Origin: a virus
DNA length: 24,474 nucleotides
Strand: one strand, 5' to 3'
IMG/VR virus record: IMGVR_UViG_3300008459_000376
Coordinates: 1 to 24,474 of that record
Part shown: one piece after another, positions 2,946-24,474 of the stretch
How positions within the stretch are numbered: the stretch's first letter is position 1
Layout: each line of letters opens with the position of its first letter
Notes under the pieces: generated by a model
Seen by the model: the letters and a program-made list of their open reading frames with translations, nothing else
Database searches by the model: none
Told to the model about the DNA's origin: nothing
Position numbers and translations under genes: made by a program

Positions 2946-2977
2946 AAGATAGAAAAAATATCTAATATATCCAAATT
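2946..2977 (-). promoter_or_regulatory. Bacteroidota-type promoter for the TAGT gene
   Basis: TATCTTTG (complement at 2946-2953) fully matches the -7 element TAnnTTTG, and a perfect TTTG lies about 18-20 nt further upstream. The ATG at 2921 follows about 25 nt downstream. The -33 element sits in the loop/arm of an inverted repeat at the end of the previous gene. Confidence 0.6.
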
Positions 2978-2987
2978 TTTTGGATTA
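2968..2987 (-). terminator. Possible hairpin terminator after the small HTH gene
   Basis: A short inverted repeat (arms ATCCAAA / TTTGGAT, tiny AT loop) straddles the stop codon of the HTH gene and is followed in the minus direction by an AT-rich stretch ending in six Ts. It is AT-rich and weak, and overlaps the next promoter, so it could instead be an operator. Confidence 0.3.
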
Positions 2988-3170
2988 TATATGAGTCCAT
3001 GTCTTTTTCTTAACTATTTCTTCTATATTCCATTTACTCACTTTGAAATTTTTACATATAACAGATGTAGAGAACCCCTTTGAGTAGAGGTCTCTAATCT
3101 GTCTTACTTGGTCATTTGTGAGTTTTGCACGAGGATGATTTTCTCCTCGTCTATTATTTATTGTATTCAT
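2985..3170 (-). CDS. Small helix-turn-helix protein (61 aa)
   Basis: Residues 10-60 (GENHPRAKLTNDQVRQIRDL, then GFSTSVICKNFKVSKWNIEEIV) match the small HTH module often found as the DNA-binding tail of phage HNH/homing endonucleases, or alone: 'G-x-x-N-x-x-A-K-L-t-x-x-x-V-x-x-I-R' followed by a resolvase-like HTH. No nuclease domain is present, so this is either a free-standing DNA-binding protein or the remnant of a homing endonuclease. Its ATG lies inside the thioredoxin gene (17-nt overlap), a compact arrangement suggesting late insertion or translational coupling. Target unknown. Confidence 0.65.
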   Translation of the reverse strand: MNTINNRRGENHPRAKLTNDQVRQIRDLYSKGFSTSVICKNFKVSKWNIEEIVKKKTWTHI

Positions 3171-3417
3171 TTATAGCACTTTCGTATGCCATTGCCGATT
3201 GAAGGCCAGTAAATCTTTTTACTTCCTTACCATTTTTTTCAATTACAACCGTAGGAACTGAACGAATTGCATATTTTGAAGCTACTTCAAACTGCTGGTC
3301 TACATCTATATTTACAAAATTTACATTTTTAAATTTTGGTTTTATACCTTCCATTATTGGTGCCAACATTTTACAAGGTCCACACCAAGTTGCTGAAAAT
3401 TTCTTTACTTCTATCAT
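3154..3417 (-). CDS. trxA: Thioredoxin
   Basis: Small dithiol reductant, 87 aa. The active site WCGPC is at residues 11-15 and the conserved cis-proline is in RSVPTVV. The fold is a minimal thioredoxin lacking the N-terminal beta strand/helix of the ~105-aa bacterial proteins, which is usual for phage thioredoxins. It follows nrdA by 27 nt and most likely recycles the C-terminal disulfide of the RNR alpha subunit. Its ribosome binding site is exceptionally strong for this window (AGGAGG, 5 nt from the ATG), suggesting high expression. Confidence 0.93.
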   Translation of the reverse strand: MIEVKKFSATWCGPCKMLAPIMEGIKPKFKNVNFVNIDVDQQFEVASKYAIRSVPTVVIEKNGKEVKRFTGLQSAMAYESAINEYNK

Positions 3418-3422
3418 TTTTT

Positions 3423-3428
3423 CCTCCT
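3423..3428 (-). promoter_or_regulatory. Strong Shine-Dalgarno of trxA
   Basis: AGGAGG in the minus strand, 5 nt before the thioredoxin ATG. Most other genes here have only A-rich leaders, so this site stands out. Confidence 0.7.
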
Positions 3429-3444
3429 TTTTAATTAATATAAC

Positions 3445-5229
3445 TTACCCATCACAACTGATGCAGTCAGGGTCCATTGCCTTAGTTGCAATATCTCCCC
3501 TTAGAACTGATTCAGTTCTCATATAATAAAGTGTTTTCACACCTTGTTTCCAAGCTTCCATCGTTACTTGGTTAATCCACTTTGGTTCTGCGATTGCAGG
3601 GAATGCCAAGTTCAAAGATACGGCCTGGTCAATGTATTGTTGTCTTATTCCAGCCTGTCTTACCAAATCCAATTGGTTGATTTCTTTAAATGTTTTAAAT
3701 ACATCTTTTACTGGAAATGTTTTTTGTAAATCTTGTGGAGGAATTTCATCACATCTTACTACTTTACCGTTACAAAAACACCAATTATCTAGTTCTTGAA
3801 TATCTTGGATAGAACCACCATCTTCCAAAACCTTATCCCAGGTTTCTTTTGTATTGATTCCAACTTTCTTAAATACTTTTTCTAATTCAGAATTTCTTCG
3901 GATAAAAGTTCCTTTTGCAGTTTGTTCGGTAAACACATTTGCTGCCCAAGGTTCAATACCTGCAGATACATCACCACTCAATTTGGAATTTGATACGGTT
4001 GGAGCAATTGCTCGTAAGTGAGTATTTCGGAATCCACTATCTTTACACCAAAGTGGTTCACCATATTCAGATGCGAGGTCTCTTGATGCCCTCTCGGATT
4101 CTATCTTCAATTGAGAGAAAATCTTACGAGTTTCAAACTGAGCAGGCATTCCTTCAAATGGAATACCTCTTTGTTGTAGATAAGTATGCCATCCTAATAC
4201 ACCCAATCCTAGTGCTCTACCTTTTTCGGCTGAACGAACTGAGTTCTCAAACCCTCTTAACCCTTTTGCCTTTTGGATAAATTCGGAAAGAACTCCATCC
4301 AAGAACCAAATTGAGGTATAAATCAAATCAGTATCCTTCCACTCATCGTATTTAGCCAAGTTTAAAGAACTTAAACAACAAACAAATGAATGTGATTCAT
4401 CGGTATGTAAAGTAATTTCAGAACAAATATTCGTCATGAATACTTTCAAACCATTTTCCTTATACATCGGAGGGTTTTGTTTGTTTACATTACCCTTAAA
4501 CATGATATATGGTTCGCCAGTTGCTTTTCTCTTTTGAAGTAGTTTACCCCATTTTCTTCTAGCAGTTTCATCCCCATCTTGAAGTTTTCTCATAAACTTA
4601 TCACCTATCACAGCACATTGATGTAGGTTAAGTGATTGTCTATTTACATCTCCTTTTGGTTCTCGGATTTCCAACCATTGTTCGAAATCTTTATGTTCGA
4701 TGTTTAGGTTTACTGATGCAGCTCCTCTACGAACCGAACCTTGATTCGTTGCAAGAATAGTTGAATCGTAAATCTTACAAAAGGGAACTACTCCATCAGA
4801 GGTTCCATTTCCTGTAATTGCTGCACCGGCAGGTCTGATTTGGTTGATACCAATACCAACACCCCCACCGTGCTTTGCCAATAACATCAACTCCAAGTTT
4901 TTATTACCAATATCAAAAATAGAATCGGCAACATCAATACCAAAACAAGATATAGGTAATCCTCTATCGGTTCCTGTATTTGAAAGGACTGGAGTAGCAA
5001 GGTTCAACCAACCTTTCCAAATGTAATCAAAAAATTTGGTTGCCATTTGTGGTTTGTTTAATCTCTGTGCTACTTTGGAAGCAACTCTCCAATAAGCATC
5101 TTTTGGTTTTTCACCAGGAAGTAAATAACCTTTTGAGATTGTTTTTACATAAATCTCGGTATTACCCCATGATGGAAAATCAACATCTAATTCCCAACCT
5201 AATTCTTCGCCGTAGTTTCTAACTGCCAT
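3445..5229 (-). CDS. nrdA: Ribonucleoside-diphosphate reductase alpha subunit (class I)
   Basis: Reduces ribonucleotides to deoxyribonucleotides. Key residues are visible: C95 in LPISCFG and C284 in VCCLSSLN (redox pair), C269 and E271 in NICSEI (thiyl radical and general base), the radical-transfer tyrosines Y568-Y569 in TLYYMRT, and a C-terminal CxxC (C589, C592) that is re-reduced by thioredoxin. At 594 aa it is much shorter than E. coli NrdA (761 aa); the protein starts directly at the region before the specificity site and has no ATP-cone, so dATP shut-off through that domain is not possible. It pairs with nrdB (6543-5530) and thioredoxin. No intein or intron interrupts it. Confidence 0.96.
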   Translation of the reverse strand: MAVRNYGEELGWELDVDFPSWGNTEIYVKTISKGYLLPGEKPKDAYWRVASKVAQRLNKPQMATKFFDYIWKGWLNLATPVLSNTGTDRGLPISCFGIDVADSIFDIGNKNLELMLLAKHGGGVGIGINQIRPAGAAITGNGTSDGVVPFCKIYDSTILATNQGSVRRGAASVNLNIEHKDFEQWLEIREPKGDVNRQSLNLHQCAVIGDKFMRKLQDGDETARRKWGKLLQKRKATGEPYIMFKGNVNKQNPPMYKENGLKVFMTNICSEITLHTDESHSFVCCLSSLNLAKYDEWKDTDLIYTSIWFLDGVLSEFIQKAKGLRGFENSVRSAEKGRALGLGVLGWHTYLQQRGIPFEGMPAQFETRKIFSQLKIESERASRDLASEYGEPLWCKDSGFRNTHLRAIAPTVSNSKLSGDVSAGIEPWAANVFTEQTAKGTFIRRNSELEKVFKKVGINTKETWDKVLEDGGSIQDIQELDNWCFCNGKVVRCDEIPPQDLQKTFPVKDVFKTFKEINQLDLVRQAGIRQQYIDQAVSLNLAFPAIAEPKWINQVTMEAWKQGVKTLYYMRTESVLRGDIATKAMDPDCISCDG

Positions 5230-16863: not shown

Positions 16864-18960
16864 TTATTCTATATACTGACCTAATTTTTTAAGAGTTGGT
16901 GATTTAGGATACCAGGTTTTTAACAATACAATTCTTTCTTTAAAATCTTGCATTTCTTCTGGAGATAAATCCGAAATATCAAAATCCTCATCCTCAAAAA
17001 GAGCCAACATATCTTTTGATTCTTGTTCTACAACGGTTCTTCTATCTTTATCACTCCATTCTGAAACATTTGTATTACCATTTTTTAGAGCAAGAGAACC
17101 AAAAGTTTCTTGTGAAACTTCAAGAGTTTGTGCGTTTCCAATTCCACGAGTTCTAACTCCTAATTTATATAAAGGAAGTTCTGATTGAGGTGGCCCATCT
17201 AAGTTAATTGCTATAACAGGTACGCCTTTTTTCTTAGTGATTACCAATTTTCTCTTGATTTCATTTTCTATTTGTTCTCGTATAGCCTTTTTCTCATCAT
17301 CTGTTTTGGCATTCTCATAGTCTTTCATCAATTCAGAAACTCCAAAAATACTACCAACTGCCTCTCGTGTCATTTCTACTGCAGGGTCGGTTCCAAATAT
17401 AGTTTTAAAATCAGTTAATGGTGGATTTGGAAAAAGAGTATCTAAAATATGAGTATCTTCTATAATTTTTTCTTTGTATTTTGATTTTGCAGATTCACTT
17501 CCTTGAAAGAAATTAAAGATATTTTCAGTCATCTCATTATCCAAATTACGAAGTTTTGGATATATACCAAATTTTTCTTTAACTCCGGCTTCTTTATTGA
17601 ATGCAGCAAAGAATTTCAAATCATCACCAGTTGATTTTTTGTTTTCATTTATTAAAAGATCAACTAGTTGTTGAGGAGTTGCGTCTTTCCAATTAGATAT
17701 TCCCAACTTCTTCTCAATATACCTTTTTCGTTTTTCAAAAGATTGTGCTTTTGGACCAAATACTTTGTTAAAATACTCTTCATCATCTAGTAGTCTTTGA
17801 GCAGCCTCTTCAAAATCTTTTCTATTTGATTTTACGGTTTCCTTACCTGTATTATATTCATCGTCTCTTCTTTTTGTGTAGTTAGAGGTTTGACAATTGT
17901 CAGGTAGATTTACTCCTACTTTTTGTTCAAACTCTTTCATGGCTTTTCCATAACCACCATTAACGATGAATACTTTAAAGTCTTTTTTCAAAGAAACACC
18001 AATAATACCACCATCATCGGTTTTCACAAACATATCAGCAGAAGTACCATGACCAGTTGAACCTACTAATTCATTACCATCAGGTGTATCCCATGCAAAA
18101 TGTTCAATATTATCTATACCAATAGTATCATTCATATAATCAAATACTGCCAAACCTGATTTAACCCATTCTTTGGTTAGAACATAATCTTTGTTATTTG
18201 CAATAGTCAATAGGTATGTTTCAACTTCGTCTCTAGCCTCTTCATAAGATTTACCAGATTTCATTAACTCTTGAATTTTCTGTCCTGCATACACGGTAAC
18301 AGATTCGCCAGTTCTTGATTCAGCAGTGCCAAGACCAACTCCTTCTTGGGATTGTTCTGCTTCTGCTTGAGTCATTAGTATTTGGGTCTGTACTTTAGAT
18401 TTATCGTTGGCTTCCAACTCTTCAAGAGTTTTTTTGACAGGAGTAGTTTTTGATGCCTTTTCCTTTTCAATCTGGTTTTGTACTTCTTTTTCTTTATTAA
18501 TCTGGTCTTGATATTCAGGTGCACTTAATGATTGACCAGTTTCAGGTTTTTCAGGTTGTCCTCCTCCAGCTTGTGCTGCCGTTTGTGCATTGGCATCTGC
18601 AGCTGCCTCCTCGCCTTCTGCTCCTTGGTCTCCCTTCATTTGGTCATACTCATCTTGGGATATTGGTTGTAATTGACCTGAAGCACTTTGTTTGTACTTC
18701 TGAGCAGATGGTTTTCCTTCATCCCCTCTACGAACATAAATACCTCTACCAATGTGAGTATACGCAGAATCTTCGCCTTGAGCATCGGATGCAGGGGCTT
18801 CAGTTAAAAAACTCATTATACGATATTTCTCTTCAATCTTACCCCATTCGGTAAGGATTTCAGATATGATAGCTTGATGTTCCTTTTTTTTCAAATCAGG
18901 TACACCAACTCTATATGAAAGTTCGTGAATTAATTCGTGTATGAGTTTTAAGTATTCCAT
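16864..18960 (-). CDS. Large protein with low-complexity linker and possible PD-(D/E)xK-like core
   Basis: Not firmly recognised; 698 aa. Residues 1-50 form a helical, possibly separate segment; 67-100 (YTHIGRGIYVRRGDEGKPSA) is a short motif I associate with large phage proteins; 105-200 is low complexity (Ala, Gln, Glu, Gly, Lys) and likely a flexible linker. A core follows in which GTSADMF (305-311) and IIGVSLKKD (319-327) resemble the D...(E/S)xK active site strands of restriction-endonuclease-like folds, with D309 and K325 and the usual Glu replaced by Ser. The rest is charged and helical. Position between tail genes and the replication side gives no clear role; a virion-carried or DNA-end protein is possible. 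It has its own promoter (18985-19016). Confidence 0.65.
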   Translation of the reverse strand: MEYLKLIHELIHELSYRVGVPDLKKKEHQAIISEILTEWGKIEEKYRIMSFLTEAPASDAQGEDSAYTHIGRGIYVRRGDEGKPSAQKYKQSASGQLQPISQDEYDQMKGDQGAEGEEAAADANAQTAAQAGGGQPEKPETGQSLSAPEYQDQINKEKEVQNQIEKEKASKTTPVKKTLEELEANDKSKVQTQILMTQAEAEQSQEGVGLGTAESRTGESVTVYAGQKIQELMKSGKSYEEARDEVETYLLTIANNKDYVLTKEWVKSGLAVFDYMNDTIGIDNIEHFAWDTPDGNELVGSTGHGTSADMFVKTDDGGIIGVSLKKDFKVFIVNGGYGKAMKEFEQKVGVNLPDNCQTSNYTKRRDDEYNTGKETVKSNRKDFEEAAQRLLDDEEYFNKVFGPKAQSFEKRKRYIEKKLGISNWKDATPQQLVDLLINENKKSTGDDLKFFAAFNKEAGVKEKFGIYPKLRNLDNEMTENIFNFFQGSESAKSKYKEKIIEDTHILDTLFPNPPLTDFKTIFGTDPAVEMTREAVGSIFGVSELMKDYENAKTDDEKKAIREQIENEIKRKLVITKKKGVPVIAINLDGPPQSELPLYKLGVRTRGIGNAQTLEVSQETFGSLALKNGNTNVSEWSDKDRRTVVEQESKDMLALFEDEDFDISDLSPEEMQDFKERIVLLKTWYPKSPTLKKLGQYIE

Positions 18961-19017: not shown

Positions 19018-20046
19018 TTAAACTAAGCGTATCTTAACTGAACCAGATGTGTGATACAATCCACCTAGTGGAATTCCACCTGCCTGTGCAGCAGTATCAT
19101 CTGCAAAATTGAATGATGATGAAACACTCGCCAATACCATTGTAGATTGTACTAATCTAACATTATCATTATTAGTCCAAAGTGAACCTGAACGATAAAT
19201 AGTACTACCACCATTATTTGTTGCCGCATCTCGTAATGAACCAGTTACAATTCTAACATCATGTAATTCATCCAATTCCCAACCATTATCAATTTTAACT
19301 TGTAGTTTACCAGATGTGGCGGCAACAACAACTTGTCCTAATCTTACTGCATGGTTTGGTGCTTGTGGTTTTGTTGCAGTGTATGTTCCACCAGGCCCTA
19401 AATACAATAGTGTAGCTGGAGGGAATCCATTTGTATTTATGCCAGTTATTTCTCCCAAAGTTACAGCATATCCAGAATTATCTTTTGCTATATCTTGTGG
19501 AAGTATACCAAAAGTAATAGCAGAACGAGTTTCACTATCCCAACTCGCGGTTCCAAATGTTGCAAACTGTCCCGAATTACCACTAATATAAACAACTGTT
19601 CCTTTTACCAAGGTTCCATTTGTGGTATTTCTTCCACGAACAACATTAACATGGCCTGCAGAAATTGTATAATCACTTATTTCAGTATCAAGTTGTAAAG
19701 TTTTTCTATCTATATCCCAATGTACCCTTCCCTCTTGATGGACTGGATATGGTGTTGGATTTGTATTAAAATCTATCCAATCTACTCCTTGAATACTACC
19801 AGTCATATAAACACTACCAGTTACATAAACACTACCAGTTATATAAATTGAATTTGGAAAAATATTATAGTTTTGAGTCTGTATTGAATTTATTTGGGAT
19901 GAACCAGAAACTAAACCATCTCTAATACCATAGTAGAGAGAACCATAAGTTGTTTTTTTAGTTTCATTACTACTAACAATAGGTATTACATCACTAAAAG
20001 TAAGTGATGTGTGTAAATTTAATTCGGTTATCCTTTTATCTGCCAT
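19018..20046 (-). CDS. Tail fibre / structural protein, 342 aa
   Basis: Begins with a short attachment-like segment (MADKRITELNLHTSLTFSDV, a start typical of phage fibre proteins: 'KIxELxxxxxlxxxDxxPIV'), then VSGSSQINS and three tandem TGS units (YITGSVYVTGSVYMTGS, residues 68-84) like those of the large upstream fibre. The middle (VKGTVVYISGNSGQFATFGT, then ITFGILPQDIAKDNSGYAVT) resembles the domain found in phage fibre/head-decoration proteins that bind ligands through beta folds. The C-terminus (DDTAAQAGGIPLGGLYHTSG) is the usual 'AAxAGGVPLGGLYxxxG' ending of phage structural proteins. Last gene of the tail operon. Confidence 0.85.
   Translation of the reverse strand: MADKRITELNLHTSLTFSDVIPIVSSNETKKTTYGSLYYGIRDGLVSGSSQINSIQTQNYNIFPNSIYITGSVYVTGSVYMTGSIQGVDWIDFNTNPTPYPVHQEGRVHWDIDRKTLQLDTEISDYTISAGHVNVVRGRNTTNGTLVKGTVVYISGNSGQFATFGTASWDSETRSAITFGILPQDIAKDNSGYAVTLGEITGINTNGFPPATLLYLGPGGTYTATKPQAPNHAVRLGQVVVAATSGKLQVKIDNGWELDELHDVRIVTGSLRDAATNNGGSTIYRSGSLWTNNDNVRLVQSTMVLASVSSSFNFADDTAAQAGGIPLGGLYHTSGSVKIRLV
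19795..19848. repeat. Three tandem 18-bp units inside the fibre gene
   Basis: Units at 19795-19812, 19813-19830 and 19831-19848 differ at two to three positions each and encode (I/V)Y(I/V/M)TGS three times. They are coding repeats that could expand or contract by slippage and change fibre length. Confidence 0.85.
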
Positions 20047-20048
20047 CT

Positions 20049-20306
20049 TTATAAATATATTTTATCTCCATTTTCTTGTAATAAAAAATCTCCGTTTTCT
20101 TGTAAAAGGAATGCACTATATGGTTGAATTGTAGTATCTATTGAACCACCACTCTTTATGTAATTATAAAAACTTAATAAAAACCCGTAATCAGGTAAGG
20201 AGGGAACATCTTCTTGTTGCATATACAAATAGTAGTCCCTAGTGAGTTCACTATATGGTTTTTTACCATCTGACTTTTCATGAAGAAATTCTTTCCAAGT
20301 TTTCAT
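20049..20306 (-). CDS. Hypothetical 85-aa tail-block protein
   Basis: Not recognised by function. A mostly helical N-terminus (MKTWKEFLHEKSDGKKPYSE, DYYLYMQQED) is followed by a C-terminal tandem FLLQENGD FLLQENGD KIYL, an 8-residue repeat (24-bp DNA repeat at about 20064-20112) of a kind often seen at the end of phage structural proteins. It sits between the fibrinogen-like and the 342-aa fibre genes, 2 nt from the latter. May be an assembly or connector protein of the fibre complex; this is inferred from position only. Confidence 0.7.
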   Translation of the reverse strand: MKTWKEFLHEKSDGKKPYSELTRDYYLYMQQEDVPSLPDYGFLLSFYNYIKSGGSIDTTIQPYSAFLLQENGDFLLQENGDKIYL

Positions 20307-20320
20307 ATATATAAGTATCT

Positions 20321-21091
20321 TTACTTTATATAAACTGCTAATGTGTTGAAGTTTGATGTAACTGAATTTTGAATAGTTGTAACATTTGCCAATCCATAAA
20401 CGGTATTATTTAATCTATTAGTCCAACCTCCCGTTCCTAAAGCATTTCCACTTCTACCATAAGGTGCATCAGGATAAACATTCGTAGGACCGTTTGTAGT
20501 CCACCAGTTTGCAGTATCATACAACCAATCAGGTGGTGCAGCAACAGGTAAAGAACCTGTCATAAAAGTATATCCTTTTAGTGGTGACCAACTACCTGTC
20601 AATGCAGGTGTTAATTTTAATATCTGTGTTGCCCTTGTATCGATATCCAACACGTTTGGATTTGAATAAACAGTTTGATGTGCAATACTACAATTTGATA
20701 AATGTGGTTGAACCGATGCGGTTGATGCCATTCTCATTACCGAATTACATTGTGCACTTCCACTTACATTAAACCAAAGATTTTCTGCGTTTCTATAATG
20801 TTTTATAAATGATGGAGTTTGTAAACTACCACTATCCCCATTTGGATATGGATACCCTGGTTGAGTTGAACCCGATGGATTATATGATATTAACATCCAA
20901 CCACCACCATTATCGGTTTGGTTACAATAAACTTGTACCGAACTTGTCATCATTCCAGTTTGAATATAATACCAACCATTTGTTTGTATTCCTGAGTTAT
21001 ATAATTGAACGGCAGAAATTGCAGGATTACCAATAGTTCCTAATGTACTACCTCCAATTCTTATACTTCCTCCTATGAATTCTATTGCCAT
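20321..21091 (-). CDS. Tail adhesin with fibrinogen-like (FReD/lectin-type) domain
   Basis: Residues 33-70 read as the start of a fibrinogen C-terminal-like domain: SGIQTNGWYYIQTG (33-46), then VQVYCNQTDNGGGWMLISY (52-70), matching 'GxYxI...pxxVyCdmtxxGGGWtxi'. The rest (SFIKHYRNAENLWFNVSG, then a Trp/Asn/Gly-rich region with DWLYDTANWWTTNGPTN) fits the ligand-binding part of such domains. Length 256 aa. Animal proteins with this fold bind sugars and acetylated groups, so the phage version is likely a receptor-binding protein. The ATG shares its A with the stop of the LamG-like gene (TAATG), so the two are coupled. Cysteines are few (C56, C115, C134), so disulfide pairing differs from the animal fold. 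Confidence 0.75.
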   Translation of the reverse strand: MAIEFIGGSIRIGGSTLGTIGNPAISAVQLYNSGIQTNGWYYIQTGMMTSSVQVYCNQTDNGGGWMLISYNPSGSTQPGYPYPNGDSGSLQTPSFIKHYRNAENLWFNVSGSAQCNSVMRMASTASVQPHLSNCSIAHQTVYSNPNVLDIDTRATQILKLTPALTGSWSPLKGYTFMTGSLPVAAPPDWLYDTANWWTTNGPTNVYPDAPYGRSGNALGTGGWTNRLNNTVYGLANVTTIQNSVTSNFNTLAVYIK

Positions 21092-21822
21092 TATAATCCG
21101 TATTTAGATTTATCTACATTATAATTATTCAAAACTTCCGATGATGTCAATGCTCTATTGTATAAACGAGTTATTCCAATTTTACCATCAAACCATTGTG
21201 AGTATTCACCACCATTATATGAACCTATGTATAAGTTTGTAGATGTATTTAATATACTTGCTAAACTATGACTTACACTACCAATACTACTACCATTTAC
21301 AAATGTTTGAAATGTATTAGCAGCAATATTGGTAAACACATAAACTATTTGATACCATGTATTAAGTGATACGGTATAGTTTGTACTATTTTGAATTAAA
21401 GTTGCACCAGAACCTGCACCTGAACCATATTGTGCATAAAATGTTGAAGATGTTGTTCTAATACTATACCCAACATTTGCCGAAAGTCCACCATTATTGA
21501 ATTTACCAAGAACCACATCATTACCGGCTACTGTCTGATTTACCCAAACTTCTATCGTCCAATCACCACTTCCTGGTTCTAACAATGCATTATCTGTAAT
21601 TGAAATTTGTGATGAAGAACCATTATATGAAAAATATGGAGATGTAAAAGATATATTTGACATTGTTCCATTTCTGCCATTTCCACTCAAATCCGTAATA
21701 GTTGTCCCACTTCCAGGATATGATGCCACATTTGATGGGTCATAATGTAATACCAATCCACTACTTACAAATGTAGGTAATAGAGGTAATACACTAAATC
21801 CTTTTGAGAATGATATACTCAT
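21091..21822 (-). CDS. Tail adhesin with LamG/concanavalin A-like domain
   Basis: After a short N-terminus (MSISFSKGFSVLPLLPTFVS, which could be a tail-attachment segment) residues ~22-235 form a LamG-like jelly-roll: GLVLHYDPSN, DLSGNGRNGTM (44-54), FSYNGSSSQISI, WTIEVWVNQT, WYQIVYVFTNI, TFQTFVNGSSIGSVSHSL, LYIGSYNGG, FDGKIGITRLYNRALTSSEV. Every one of these is a standard step in the family (strands, 'DxSGNGxxG', 'aWvk', 'FvNG', 'fdGkIxxvrIYNRALsxxEi'). Such domains bind carbohydrate on the host surface. Between the big fibre (stop 21826) and the fibrinogen-like gene, coupled to both by minimal spacing. Confidence 0.88.
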   Translation of the reverse strand: MSISFSKGFSVLPLLPTFVSSGLVLHYDPSNVASYPGSGTTITDLSGNGRNGTMSNISFTSPYFSYNGSSSQISITDNALLEPGSGDWTIEVWVNQTVAGNDVVLGKFNNGGLSANVGYSIRTTSSTFYAQYGSGAGSGATLIQNSTNYTVSLNTWYQIVYVFTNIAANTFQTFVNGSSIGSVSHSLASILNTSTNLYIGSYNGGEYSQWFDGKIGITRLYNRALTSSEVLNNYNVDKSKYGL

Positions 21823-21825
21823 AAC

Positions 21826-22245
21826 CTATCCTATATATGCTACTGAAAAATTATCGTTTACATCAAATGAAGCAGTTCCTACTGTCACTATTGCTTTGAG
21901 TGTATCTCCTACTGCTAGTTTAGAAATAGTAGAAGCCCCAATATGGTTTACATTTGTATTTGCTGCCCATTCTACCATTACTTGTGCGGTTCCGTTTGGA
22001 GATGGTGATGTTGTTGTATTATTTTTATAAACAATTACTTGAACCGATTGTGCACTATTATTTGAATTTGTTCTACAAACTAAATTTACCTGATACAATC
22101 CTGCAATTGGTGCGGTAAATGTACCAGTTGTATTATCCCAACCTCCTTGATTATAATCAACAATGGTCATACTACCTGATAATGTAGTTATTGCGGTGGT
22201 AGCTCCACCCAATCCATATACTCTAAAAGCAGGTCTATTCGGCAT
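21826..22245 (-). other. C1q-like jelly-roll domain of the tail fibre
   Basis: Sub-feature of the large fibre. Begins after PNRPAFRVYG and includes the conserved 'G.Y.F.A...G.Y' type step (GTFTAPIAGLYQVNL) and terminal FSVAYIG strand. Trimeric C1q heads bind varied ligands. Confidence 0.7.
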
Positions 22246-24474
22246 TGTGATTGAACCACTACTAATACTGATTGAACCTGACATTGCTAAACTACCACTA
22301 AGTCTTAATGAACCAGTAATTTCTGTTAATCCATTATTTTGAACATATAAGTTACTACCACTTGTTAAATAAAGTGATGATGTATTTGCAAGTATTTGAG
22401 ACGCAAGAAATGAACCAGTTGTTATTATTAACGAACCTGTAATTGTTTGGGTTCCGTTAAATGAGTTTGAACCAGTTGTTGCTAATGAACTACTCCAAAT
22501 ATTTAAAGAAGATGTAAATGTGTTTAGTGAAGTATTTGCATTAGATGCTGTAAATGTATTTAATTGTAATATTGATGAAGTTACCGAACCAGTTACTAAA
22601 TATCTACCATCAAATGAACTTGTCAATTGTGATGAACCACTAATTACTCCAGATGGTAATGAACCACCACTACCACTTGCAGCATATCTTGTATCGAATG
22701 ATGCAGTTAATTGTGATGAACCTGAAATTGTACCAGACGGAACTGCACTGATACTACCGCTTAAAGTATATCGAGTGTCATAAGAAGAAGTTAATTGAGA
22801 ACTACCACTAATAATTCCTCTACCTTTCGCTTCATATCCTGCTGCAACTTCTACATCGGTTGCGTATGTATTATTTAAAGATGATAAAACACCATTAATT
22901 GCTGATATATCATTTGTTACACCATCTTTCCACGAATCATTTGAAGTTGTGTAAGCATTTAAAGATGCTGATGCTAATTGTAAATTTAGTAATCTACTAT
23001 CAACTGATGAACTAAATGCAACTACGTTACCAATTCCAAAAACAGAACCAGTTAATGAACCAGTGATTGCTCCACTTGAATCTATTGAAATACTACTACC
23101 ACTTGTTAAGGATAATACTGAACCCGTTGGTACATTTATTCCACCACTAACAACTGCAATTGCACTTACTATTAAAGAACCAGTTATAGTTTGAGAACCA
23201 CTAAATGAGTTTGAACCAGTTGTTGCAAATGAGGATGTAAGTTGAGAACTTCCACTTATTAAACCTGCTGGTAATGGTTGGACACTGCCACTTAATGTAT
23301 AACGAGTATCATATGAACTTGTCAATTGTGATGAACCACTAATAATACCAGATGGCAATGGTTGAACACTACCACTTAAAGTATATCTTGTATCAAATGA
23401 AGATGTGAGTTGTGATGAACCACTTATTACACCATTTGTTGCCTCGATTTCACCTTGTAAATAAGCTGATTTTAATCTGTTTGTTGATGGATTGTATAAT
23501 ACACCAGGTACGCCATCGGTATAAGTTTGCATATATCCGTTTGAGCCAGATGCTGCAAATATTAAAGAATAATCTTGGTTTAAGTTTGAGTTCTGTGTTA
23601 ATACTAATGATGCTTGAGATGCAAGACCCGTTACATTTCCTCTAAACGAACCAGTAAATGAACCTGATAAATTTGGTATCGTAGTTCCACTTAATTGTGA
23701 ACTACCACTAATAATTCCACTACCCTTTGTTTCGTAAGAAGATGTTGCGTTTTCTAATGAACTTATTCTAGAATTAGATGATGTATAGAAACTTGCGAAT
23801 GCATTATCATTTGTAGTGTCTACTGAATTGATTAAGGTTACGATTTCTGCAAATGAATCTTTATCAGCACTTGAAGCGGATAATATAGCATCAATTCTTC
23901 CTTTTTCGGTAGTAATTCGAGTGTCAACTGATGCACTATCAGTAAAATAAGATGCAGTAAATGAATTAAATGATGATGTTAATGTATATCTACCATCAAA
24001 TGAACTTGTCAATTGTGAAGAACCACTTATCAATCCAACTGGTAGTCCTATTAATGTTCCATTGGAATTAAACTCCCACAATTTGGAAGATTTTGAAAAG
24101 TTTATACCAATTCTATAACCCATTGTCAATGAACCATCACTTAATGTAATCTTATTGAATGGATGTTGATAATTTACAGCAGTTACGGTATAAGTTCCTC
24201 CACCCACGATTGTAGCAGTCCAACCAACTGCCACATTTTGTGCAGCTGGGTAATCAACTATGTATGCCCAAAATTCATTATTTGATGATGGATTTTCATT
24301 GATTGCATACGCGGTTCCTCCAGGAATTAGTATGGATACTGACCCAGTAATAATTTGGTTTCCTATAAAAACATTCGAACCAGTTGTTGCATAACTTCCT
24401 GTTTTTGAAGTTAGTGGTGTTAAATCAGTAGATTGTGAAACTAATCCAGATGGTTTTCCACTAATATTATCCCA
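21826..24474 (-). CDS. Large repeat-rich tail fibre with C1q-like C-terminal domain (5' end outside window)
   Basis: The frame is open to the right edge, so the true start is beyond the window; an in-frame GTG at 24234 is not needed as start because the upstream codons (e.g. TGSNVFIGNQIITGS) continue the same repeat style. The shaft has eight copies of ISGSSQL(T)-type units, many as ISGSSQLTSSFDTRYTLSGS, and three copies of ATTGSNxFxGxQxITGS. Ser/Gly/Thr richness suggests a trimeric beta shaft. The last ~135 residues (after MPNRPAFRVYGLGG) are a C1q/TNF-like jelly roll: FTAPIAGLYQVNL, VQVIVYKNN, ASTISKLAVGDTLKAIV, NDNFSVAYIG. Probably the main receptor-binding fibre, upstream of two further adhesin genes. 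Confidence 0.88.
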   Translation of the reverse strand, partial: WDNISGKPSGLVSQSTDLTPLTSKTGSYATTGSNVFIGNQIITGSVSILIPGGTAYAINENPSSNNEFWAYIVDYPAAQNVAVGWTATIVGGGTYTVTAVNYQHPFNKITLSDGSLTMGYRIGINFSKSSKLWEFNSNGTLIGLPVGLISGSSQLTSSFDGRYTLTSSFNSFTASYFTDSASVDTRITTEKGRIDAILSASSADKDSFAEIVTLINSVDTTNDNAFASFYTSSNSRISSLENATSSYETKGSGIISGSSQLSGTTIPNLSGSFTGSFRGNVTGLASQASLVLTQNSNLNQDYSLIFAASGSNGYMQTYTDGVPGVLYNPSTNRLKSAYLQGEIEATNGVISGSSQLTSSFDTRYTLSGSVQPLPSGIISGSSQLTSSYDTRYTLSGSVQPLPAGLISGSSQLTSSFATTGSNSFSGSQTITGSLIVSAIAVVSGGINVPTGSVLSLTSGSSISIDSSGAITGSLTGSVFGIGNVVAFSSSVDSRLLNLQLASASLNAYTTSNDSWKDGVTNDISAINGVLSSLNNTYATDVEVAAGYEAKGRGIISGSSQLTSSYDTRYTLSGSISAVPSGTISGSSQLTASFDTRYAASGSGGSLPSGVISGSSQLTSSFDGRYLVTGSVTSSILQLNTFTASNANTSLNTFTSSLNIWSSSLATTGSNSFNGTQTITGSLIITTGSFLASQILANTSSLYLTSGSNLYVQNNGLTEITGSLRLSGSLAMSGSISISSGSITMPNRPAFRVYGLGGATTAITTLSGSMTIVDYNQGGWDNTTGTFTAPIAGLYQVNLVCRTNSNNSAQSVQVIVYKNNTTTSPSPNGTAQVMVEWAANTNVNHIGASTISKLAVGDTLKAIVTVGTASFDVNDNFSVAYIG
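22590..24045. repeat. Dispersed ~84-bp coding repeats of the tail fibre shaft
   Basis: About eight copies of a unit that encodes SGxISGSSQLTSSFDTRYTL plus an 8-residue linker. Two copies are strictly tandem with an 84-bp period (about 23284-23346 and 23368-23430); others start near 22600, 22670, 22755, 23236, 23680 and 23985. A second unit (ATTGSNSFSGSQTITGSL) occurs near 22440, 23170 and 24340. Near-identity at DNA level makes the region prone to recombination and to assembly collapse. Confidence 0.85.

Follow-up and report, generated by a model that had tools for sequence, protein, structure and literature searches.

A short N-terminal tag shared by unrelated, exchanged putative binding domains behind a C1q-headed tail fibre of a T4-like phage known from metagenomes

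In phages of the T2/S16 type, gp38 caps the gp37 trimer through the gp38 N-terminus (PMC6851490), and replacing the first 113 residues of PP01 gp38 with the T2 ones lets it work in T2 (PMC12892980). Host-recognition genes of marine phage metaviromic islands were reported in 2014 to include C1q, lectin-like, fibrinogen-like and gp38 genes (PMC3909814), and cryoconite phages carry C1q variants downstream of their tail fibre (PMC7468147). Here we describe an adhesin block in the complete record IMGVR_UViG_3300008459_000376 (24,474 bases; hereafter the window), which comes from a T4-like phage known from metagenomes only and carries T4-like replication genes on its minus strand. In this block a long tail fibre with a predicted C1q-like head is followed by two small genes, coding for a LamG-like and a fibrinogen-like protein (Table 1). 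Both small genes start with a segment of about 13 residues, M-[AS]-I-x-F-x-x-G-x-x-I, which we call the tag. The nearest isolate by UvsX, Microcystis phage Mel-JY01 (53.7%), showed no such adhesin block; one candidate gene there starts MPIKMINGSGSIYF.

The arrangement resembles that of T2/S16-type gp38 in three respects. Separate small genes lie directly behind the distal fibre gene, in the window (a 3-nucleotide (nt) gap, then a TAATG overlap) and in relatives; the N-terminal part is thought to attach while the distal part varies; and poly-glycine bodies occur, here among relatives and not in the window. Unlike the helical attachment domain of gp38 (PMC6851490), however, the tags MSISFSKGFSVLP and MAIEFIGGSIRIG are short, strand-like and devoid of Trp, and run straight into the body. 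The window also differs in its LamG and fibrinogen-like bodies, in having two adhesins per fibre and in the C1q head of that fibre. Since they lack a Trp-bearing helical attachment domain and their bodies are not poly-glycine, the window proteins are not members of the gp38 family.

The shared tag is the most informative feature of the block and was missed by the initial annotation. Relatives were sought among metagenomic contigs in IMG/VR. Contigs that are related do not count as independent, and for several of the combinations described below the basis is one or two contigs. In about 30 relatives the same tag, alike in DNA and reading M-[ASPG]-I-x-F-x-x-G-x-x-[IL], stands ahead of unrelated bodies, which include three LamG types, two fibrinogen/intelectin types, poly-glycine ALK/gp38-like proteins and others. 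Reading the loci gene by gene gave three types of fibre head, namely C1q, heads ending ISIERLY and heads ending GTLYIIIG. When genes were chosen solely by their position behind fibres found via their heads, without use of the motif, the gene directly behind the fibre carried the tag for 16 of 24 non-redundant C1q fibres and for 13 of 14 ISIERLY-headed ones. The loose motif occurred in 27 of 771 other genes, and these were further array members (second adhesins included), MALKFRRG-type fibres or the SSB gene, whose start MALDINAIRG matches it.

Comparison of the DNA locates the end of the shared segment. Across different folds the mean likeness is 0.65 over nt 1–30 and 0.29 over nt 46–84. A likeness of at least 0.7 was reached by 65 of 659 cross-fold tag pairs, compared with none of 12,915 pairs between tags and other gene starts (nt 1–39; likeness 0.40). 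Because the likeness stops directly behind the tag, the joint between tag and body is a point of exchange. Codon use within the tag is itself conserved: Ile3 is written ATA in 37 of 43 distinct tags, as against 195 of 426 Ile codons elsewhere, and for the variable residues 4 and 6 the third codon positions show about 91% conservation. Such conservation beyond the amino acid would be expected if it were the DNA of the tag that is kept, for translation start or recombination, and the peptide had no docking role. However, fixed residues (I3, F5, G8) alternate with free ones (4, 6) in the pattern of a protein strand, F5 and G8 are written with several codons, and these residues are found again in the long fibres of other phages. 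We therefore regard conservation as DNA alone as quite improbable.

Bodies behind the tag have been exchanged, gained, lost or put in another order, and the fibre heads have been exchanged independently of them. IMG/VR scans found the fibrinogen-like gene in 15 contigs, a relative of the LamG gene in 40 loci and the C1q head in 27, and among these relatives fibre head, first adhesin and second adhesin occur in many combinations (Table 2). Three DNA comparisons show the exchanges directly. Between the window and locus L020 the head (0.90), the LamG gene (0.85) and the second tag (0.78) are alike, while the second bodies are not related (0.47 when forced into alignment). Between the window and L018 the LamG gene is alike (0.87) and the head is unrelated (0.43). 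In L011 the window's LamG body (0.93) stands behind the tag that L007 uses for LamG-B (0.84), and the fibrinogen-like gene that follows it resembles that of L007 (0.79). The initial annotation had raised the possibility that domains are swapped as cassettes among related phages, and all three comparisons bear this out. The tight coupling of small genes behind the fibre, to which it had drawn attention, likewise recurs in relatives.

Table 2. Combinations of fibre head and adhesins in the window and its relatives
Fibre head	First adhesin	Second adhesin	Loci
C1q	LamG-A	fibrinogen	window, L003
C1q	LamG-A	poly-Gly	L020
C1q	fibrinogen		L006
C1q	fibrinogen	LamG-B	L014
C1q	poly-Gly		L057, L058, L065, L070, L072, L073
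C1q	intelectin-like		L061, L062, L064
C1q	LamG-B		L083
C1q	no tagged gene		L060
ISIERLY	fibrinogen		L001, L002, L004, L005, L008–L010, L015
ISIERLY	LamG-A	fibrinogen	L011
ISIERLY	LamG-B	fibrinogen	L007, L012
ISIERLY	LamG-A	poly-Gly	L018, L019
ISIERLY-like	LamG-B	poly-Gly	L120

The poly-glycine bodies, absent from the window and found as the alternative body in L018, L072 and others, match the glycine-rich domain of ALK/LTK (Pfam 2.6e-5; LTK in PDB, 1.7e-6). LamG bodies also occur without the tag, in L042, in the first LamG gene of L044 and in Flavobacterium phage immuto, so not every use of this body requires it. The L042 phage contig is very large (399,796 bases), and its LamG body has a different N-terminus and is 69% identical to that of the window, from which we conclude that the LamG body crosses wide phage distances. 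In L003 (2557–7265) an ISIERLY-headed and then a C1q-headed fibre stand in tandem ahead of the genes for the LamG and fibrinogen-like proteins; any such pair in the window would lie beyond its cut edge.

The folds of the three window proteins are predicted with differing security. Assignment of the LamG domain from its sequence is firm (Laminin_G_3, PF13385; 73.1 bits against a cut-off of 27.6, positions 1–150 of 151; E value in Table 1), as the initial annotation had proposed for the gene after the fibre. Neither this protein nor the whole fibre gave a PDB sequence match at E 0.1. The C1q head that it had also proposed is weak when judged from the window alone, with 19.2 bits against a cut-off of 23.7 for the head (PF00386; E 0.0015) and a match below the cut-off for the whole fibre (E 0.016). 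From the family it is strong, and we consider the predicted assignment firm: all 23 homologous heads match Pfam C1q (best E 1.1e-10), and their profile matches adiponectin, cerebellin and C1QL3 in PDB. A single-chain AlphaFold2 model of the head (predicted local distance difference test score (pLDDT) 89.5) has a C1q/TNF-like jelly-roll fold, and its best PDB matches are C1QL3, C1QL2, C1QL1 and C1q (for C1QL3, C1QL1 and C1q, E about 1e-7 and template-modelling score about 0.66–0.81). No tblastn match to the head was found among phage isolates at E 1e-3.

For the fibrinogen-like protein, the proposed domain held over part of its length. Fibrinogen_C (PF00147) matches with 23.2 bits against a cut-off of 22, over 48 of 221 profile positions, and a PDB search with the profile of the family returned angiopoietin-1 and fibrinogen chains from 3e-5, again over about 50 residues. 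An AlphaFold2 model from 19 sequences was unusable (pLDDT 30), and the fold, which thus rests on sequence, is secure only over about 50 N-terminal residues. A sister family (L061, L062, L064, L100), which matches intelectin-1 (3.5e-7), aligns with it over the tag and the first ~70 residues (profile–profile E 1e-9). The fibrinogen-like family had no match in a collection of bacterial and archaeal genomes.

We propose that these genes code for a modular receptor-binding apparatus, in which the fibre encoded just upstream serves as the docking partner of the tagged adhesins and bodies are exchanged behind the tag. From sequence and analogy we give this reading a probability of about 0.6. The long fibre would end in its C1q-like head, and the two next genes would supply separate small adhesins, each combining the short tag (~13 residues) with a globular domain for binding. 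The adhesin most likely docks on the fibre product by way of its tag, in parallel with the capping of gp37 by gp38 in T2/S16-type phages but with another attachment element, and whatever body follows the tag would then be displayed. Binding specificity could then change by exchange of whole bodies behind the tag, by gain or loss of an adhesin gene or by a swap of the fibre head. What we infer here is that the proteins dock via the tag, that they are part of the virion and that each body binds a ligand. As the tags are independent of head type, the docking site is probably not the head itself, and the shaft segment just before the head, common to C1q- and ISIERLY-headed fibres, is a candidate.

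Position directly behind a fibre gene is also shared with Tfa and T4 gp38 (PMC9608196), and the small proteins could accordingly be fibre-folding chaperones or assembly factors of that kind, which the finished virion would lack. However, their ectodomains are of lectin and receptor types, unrelated folds take their place behind an unchanged fibre head, and scans of Pfam and PHROGs gave no match to a chaperone family. A chaperone role seems to us the least probable of the explanations considered.

To ask where else the tag occurs, IMG/VR was scanned with tag DNA alone (23 positions), blind to the body. Among the 35 stretches returned, four were chance-like (three frames of 3–21 residues and one of 73, in L124) and one, a 171-residue Lcl_C-like protein just below the cut-off among bacterial-looking genes (L115), is uncertain. 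The others were starts of adhesin or fibre genes, mostly within 38 nt of a tail gene, and included known adhesin families as well as unrecognised candidates. A new tagged body of 191 residues recurs behind the fibre in L113, L122 and L139 and is a candidate for a further adhesin type; in L122 its gene (2972–3547) lies 2 nt behind that of an 876-residue fibre. L121 codes for a tagged Thr/Pro-rich protein of 375 residues. In other phages the tag stands at the N-terminus of long tail fibres (MAIEFLNGIDL and the like; ~600–2500 residues where complete). From these sequences, the tag thus looks like an element at the N-terminus of tail-fibre-class proteins whose genes come after another tail gene.

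Several of these results weigh against docking on the fibre. Since long fibres of other phages start with it, the tag is not confined to adhesins. It has none of the Trp-bearing helices that attach gp38, and 8 of the 24 C1q fibres have no tagged neighbour. We also looked for tags that track the type of fibre head, as docking on the head would predict, and found none. The main alternative is that the tag represents the first strand-turn-strand of a general tail-fibre N-terminus, and that the small proteins are independent short fibres or spikes on the baseplate, beside the long fibre. Its presence on long fibres and its independence of head type both fit this alternative. In contrast, tagged genes lie 1–38 nt behind another tail gene in nearly all cases, and in the window proteins the tag leads into the globular body with hardly any stalk, which sets them apart from a stand-alone fibre. 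Independent fibres or spikes are, in our estimate, unlikely.

If tagged adhesins do dock on the upstream fibre, the tag could be a standard plug in many aquatic phages, a short peptide that mounts any globular binder (LamG, fibrinogen/intelectin-like, ALK-like poly-glycine or others), sometimes two different ones on one C1q-headed fibre, with host range changed by trading bodies. We hold this wider version tentatively, at somewhat less than an even chance. The initial annotation had suggested a multi-component complex with several specificities. Such a complex, with its presumed co-assembly, is putative, and many relatives have one adhesin or none.

Gene reading reproduced exactly the coordinates and spacing first given for the block. 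The fibre stop (21826–21828) is followed by the 3-nt gap and the LamG ATG (21822–21820), the LamG stop overlaps the fibrinogen-like ATG in TAATG at 21093–21089, and the fibrinogen-like gene ends at 20321.

Table 1. Features of the adhesin block in the window
Feature	Position	Strand	Basis or remark
Long tail-fibre gene, 5' end cut by window edge	21826–24474	-	shaft with SGSSQLTSSFDTRYTLSGS-type repeats; shaft homologues in many loci
C1q-like head, fibre C-terminus	21826–22272	-	family Pfam matches and AlphaFold2 model
Adhesin 1, LamG (ConA-like) protein, 243 residues	21091–21822	-	Pfam Laminin_G_3 3.7e-20
Adhesin 1 N-terminal tag MSISFSKGFSVLP	21784–21822	-	common to unrelated bodies in relatives
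Adhesin 2, fibrinogen-like protein, 256 residues	20321–21091	-	Fibrinogen_C 7.1e-5, residues 29–76; PDB matches
Adhesin 2 N-terminal tag MAIEFIGGSIRIG	21053–21091	-	common to poly-glycine proteins of L018, L019 and L020
Small gene	20049–20306		14 nt beyond fibrinogen-like gene

After the small gene comes a second fibre-like gene (19018–20046) with the same SGSSQ/TGSVYVTGS repeats, whose N-terminus is common to relatives of other length (for example 610 residues in L005). A 698-residue protein (16864–18960) has its first ~160–220 residues conserved in relatives and the remainder unmatched; it gave no match in Pfam or PHROGs. At the other end, compared with the PolB of Mel-JY01, positions 1–138 code on the plus strand for residues 630–675 of a family-B DNA polymerase, and an open reading frame at 3–1241 on the minus strand codes for the N-terminal part of the same polymerase. 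Because one polymerase gene runs in both directions across the junction, near base 110–140, this end (1–1241) looks like an inverted chimera.

The domains themselves are already known in phages. The description of the three folds as animal-like was oversold, given the marine phage genes known since 2014 (PMC3909814). What is new is the shared tag with unrelated folds exchanged behind it, which we did not find described in the literature searched. Host range cannot be read from the genomes of most aquatic phages because their receptor binders go unrecognised; the tag marks adhesin genes whatever fold follows and so can be used to look for them. It further provides a concrete model in which phages trade, as whole cassettes, folds that animal recognition proteins also have (C1q, intelectin/fibrinogen, ALK). 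Domain exchange behind a short common starting segment suggests a plug-in system for changing phage binding.

Other described systems share parts of this organization. In the marine phage islands such genes also lie near tail-fibre genes and vary between related phages; unlike the block described here, the portion of that report drawn on describes no shared tag or exchange of unrelated folds (PMC3909814). Cyanophage S-MS29 (L109) likewise has a fibre followed by small fibrinogen-like and glycine-rich genes that share an N-terminal module, in the order fibre, a 138-residue gene, three fibrinogen-like genes and one glycine-rich gene. Unlike in the window, that module is about 90 residues long and unrelated to the 13-residue tag, the 138-residue gene intervenes, and only one of the three fibrinogen-like genes has even a weak Fibrinogen_C match (E 0.008). 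In immuto (L107) a tail-fibre-like gene precedes adjacent, tightly coupled LamG genes, whose N-termini (MAEIHGPKVV, MPTAGGPNTV) differ from the tag; no C1q head or fibrinogen-like gene was seen there, and no virion proteomics for immuto phages was found in the literature searched. Fibres of extracellular contractile injection systems also combine attachment N-termini with exchangeable domains, C1q included (PMC12923769). There the domains sit within one fibre protein, whereas here they are carried by separate adhesin genes.

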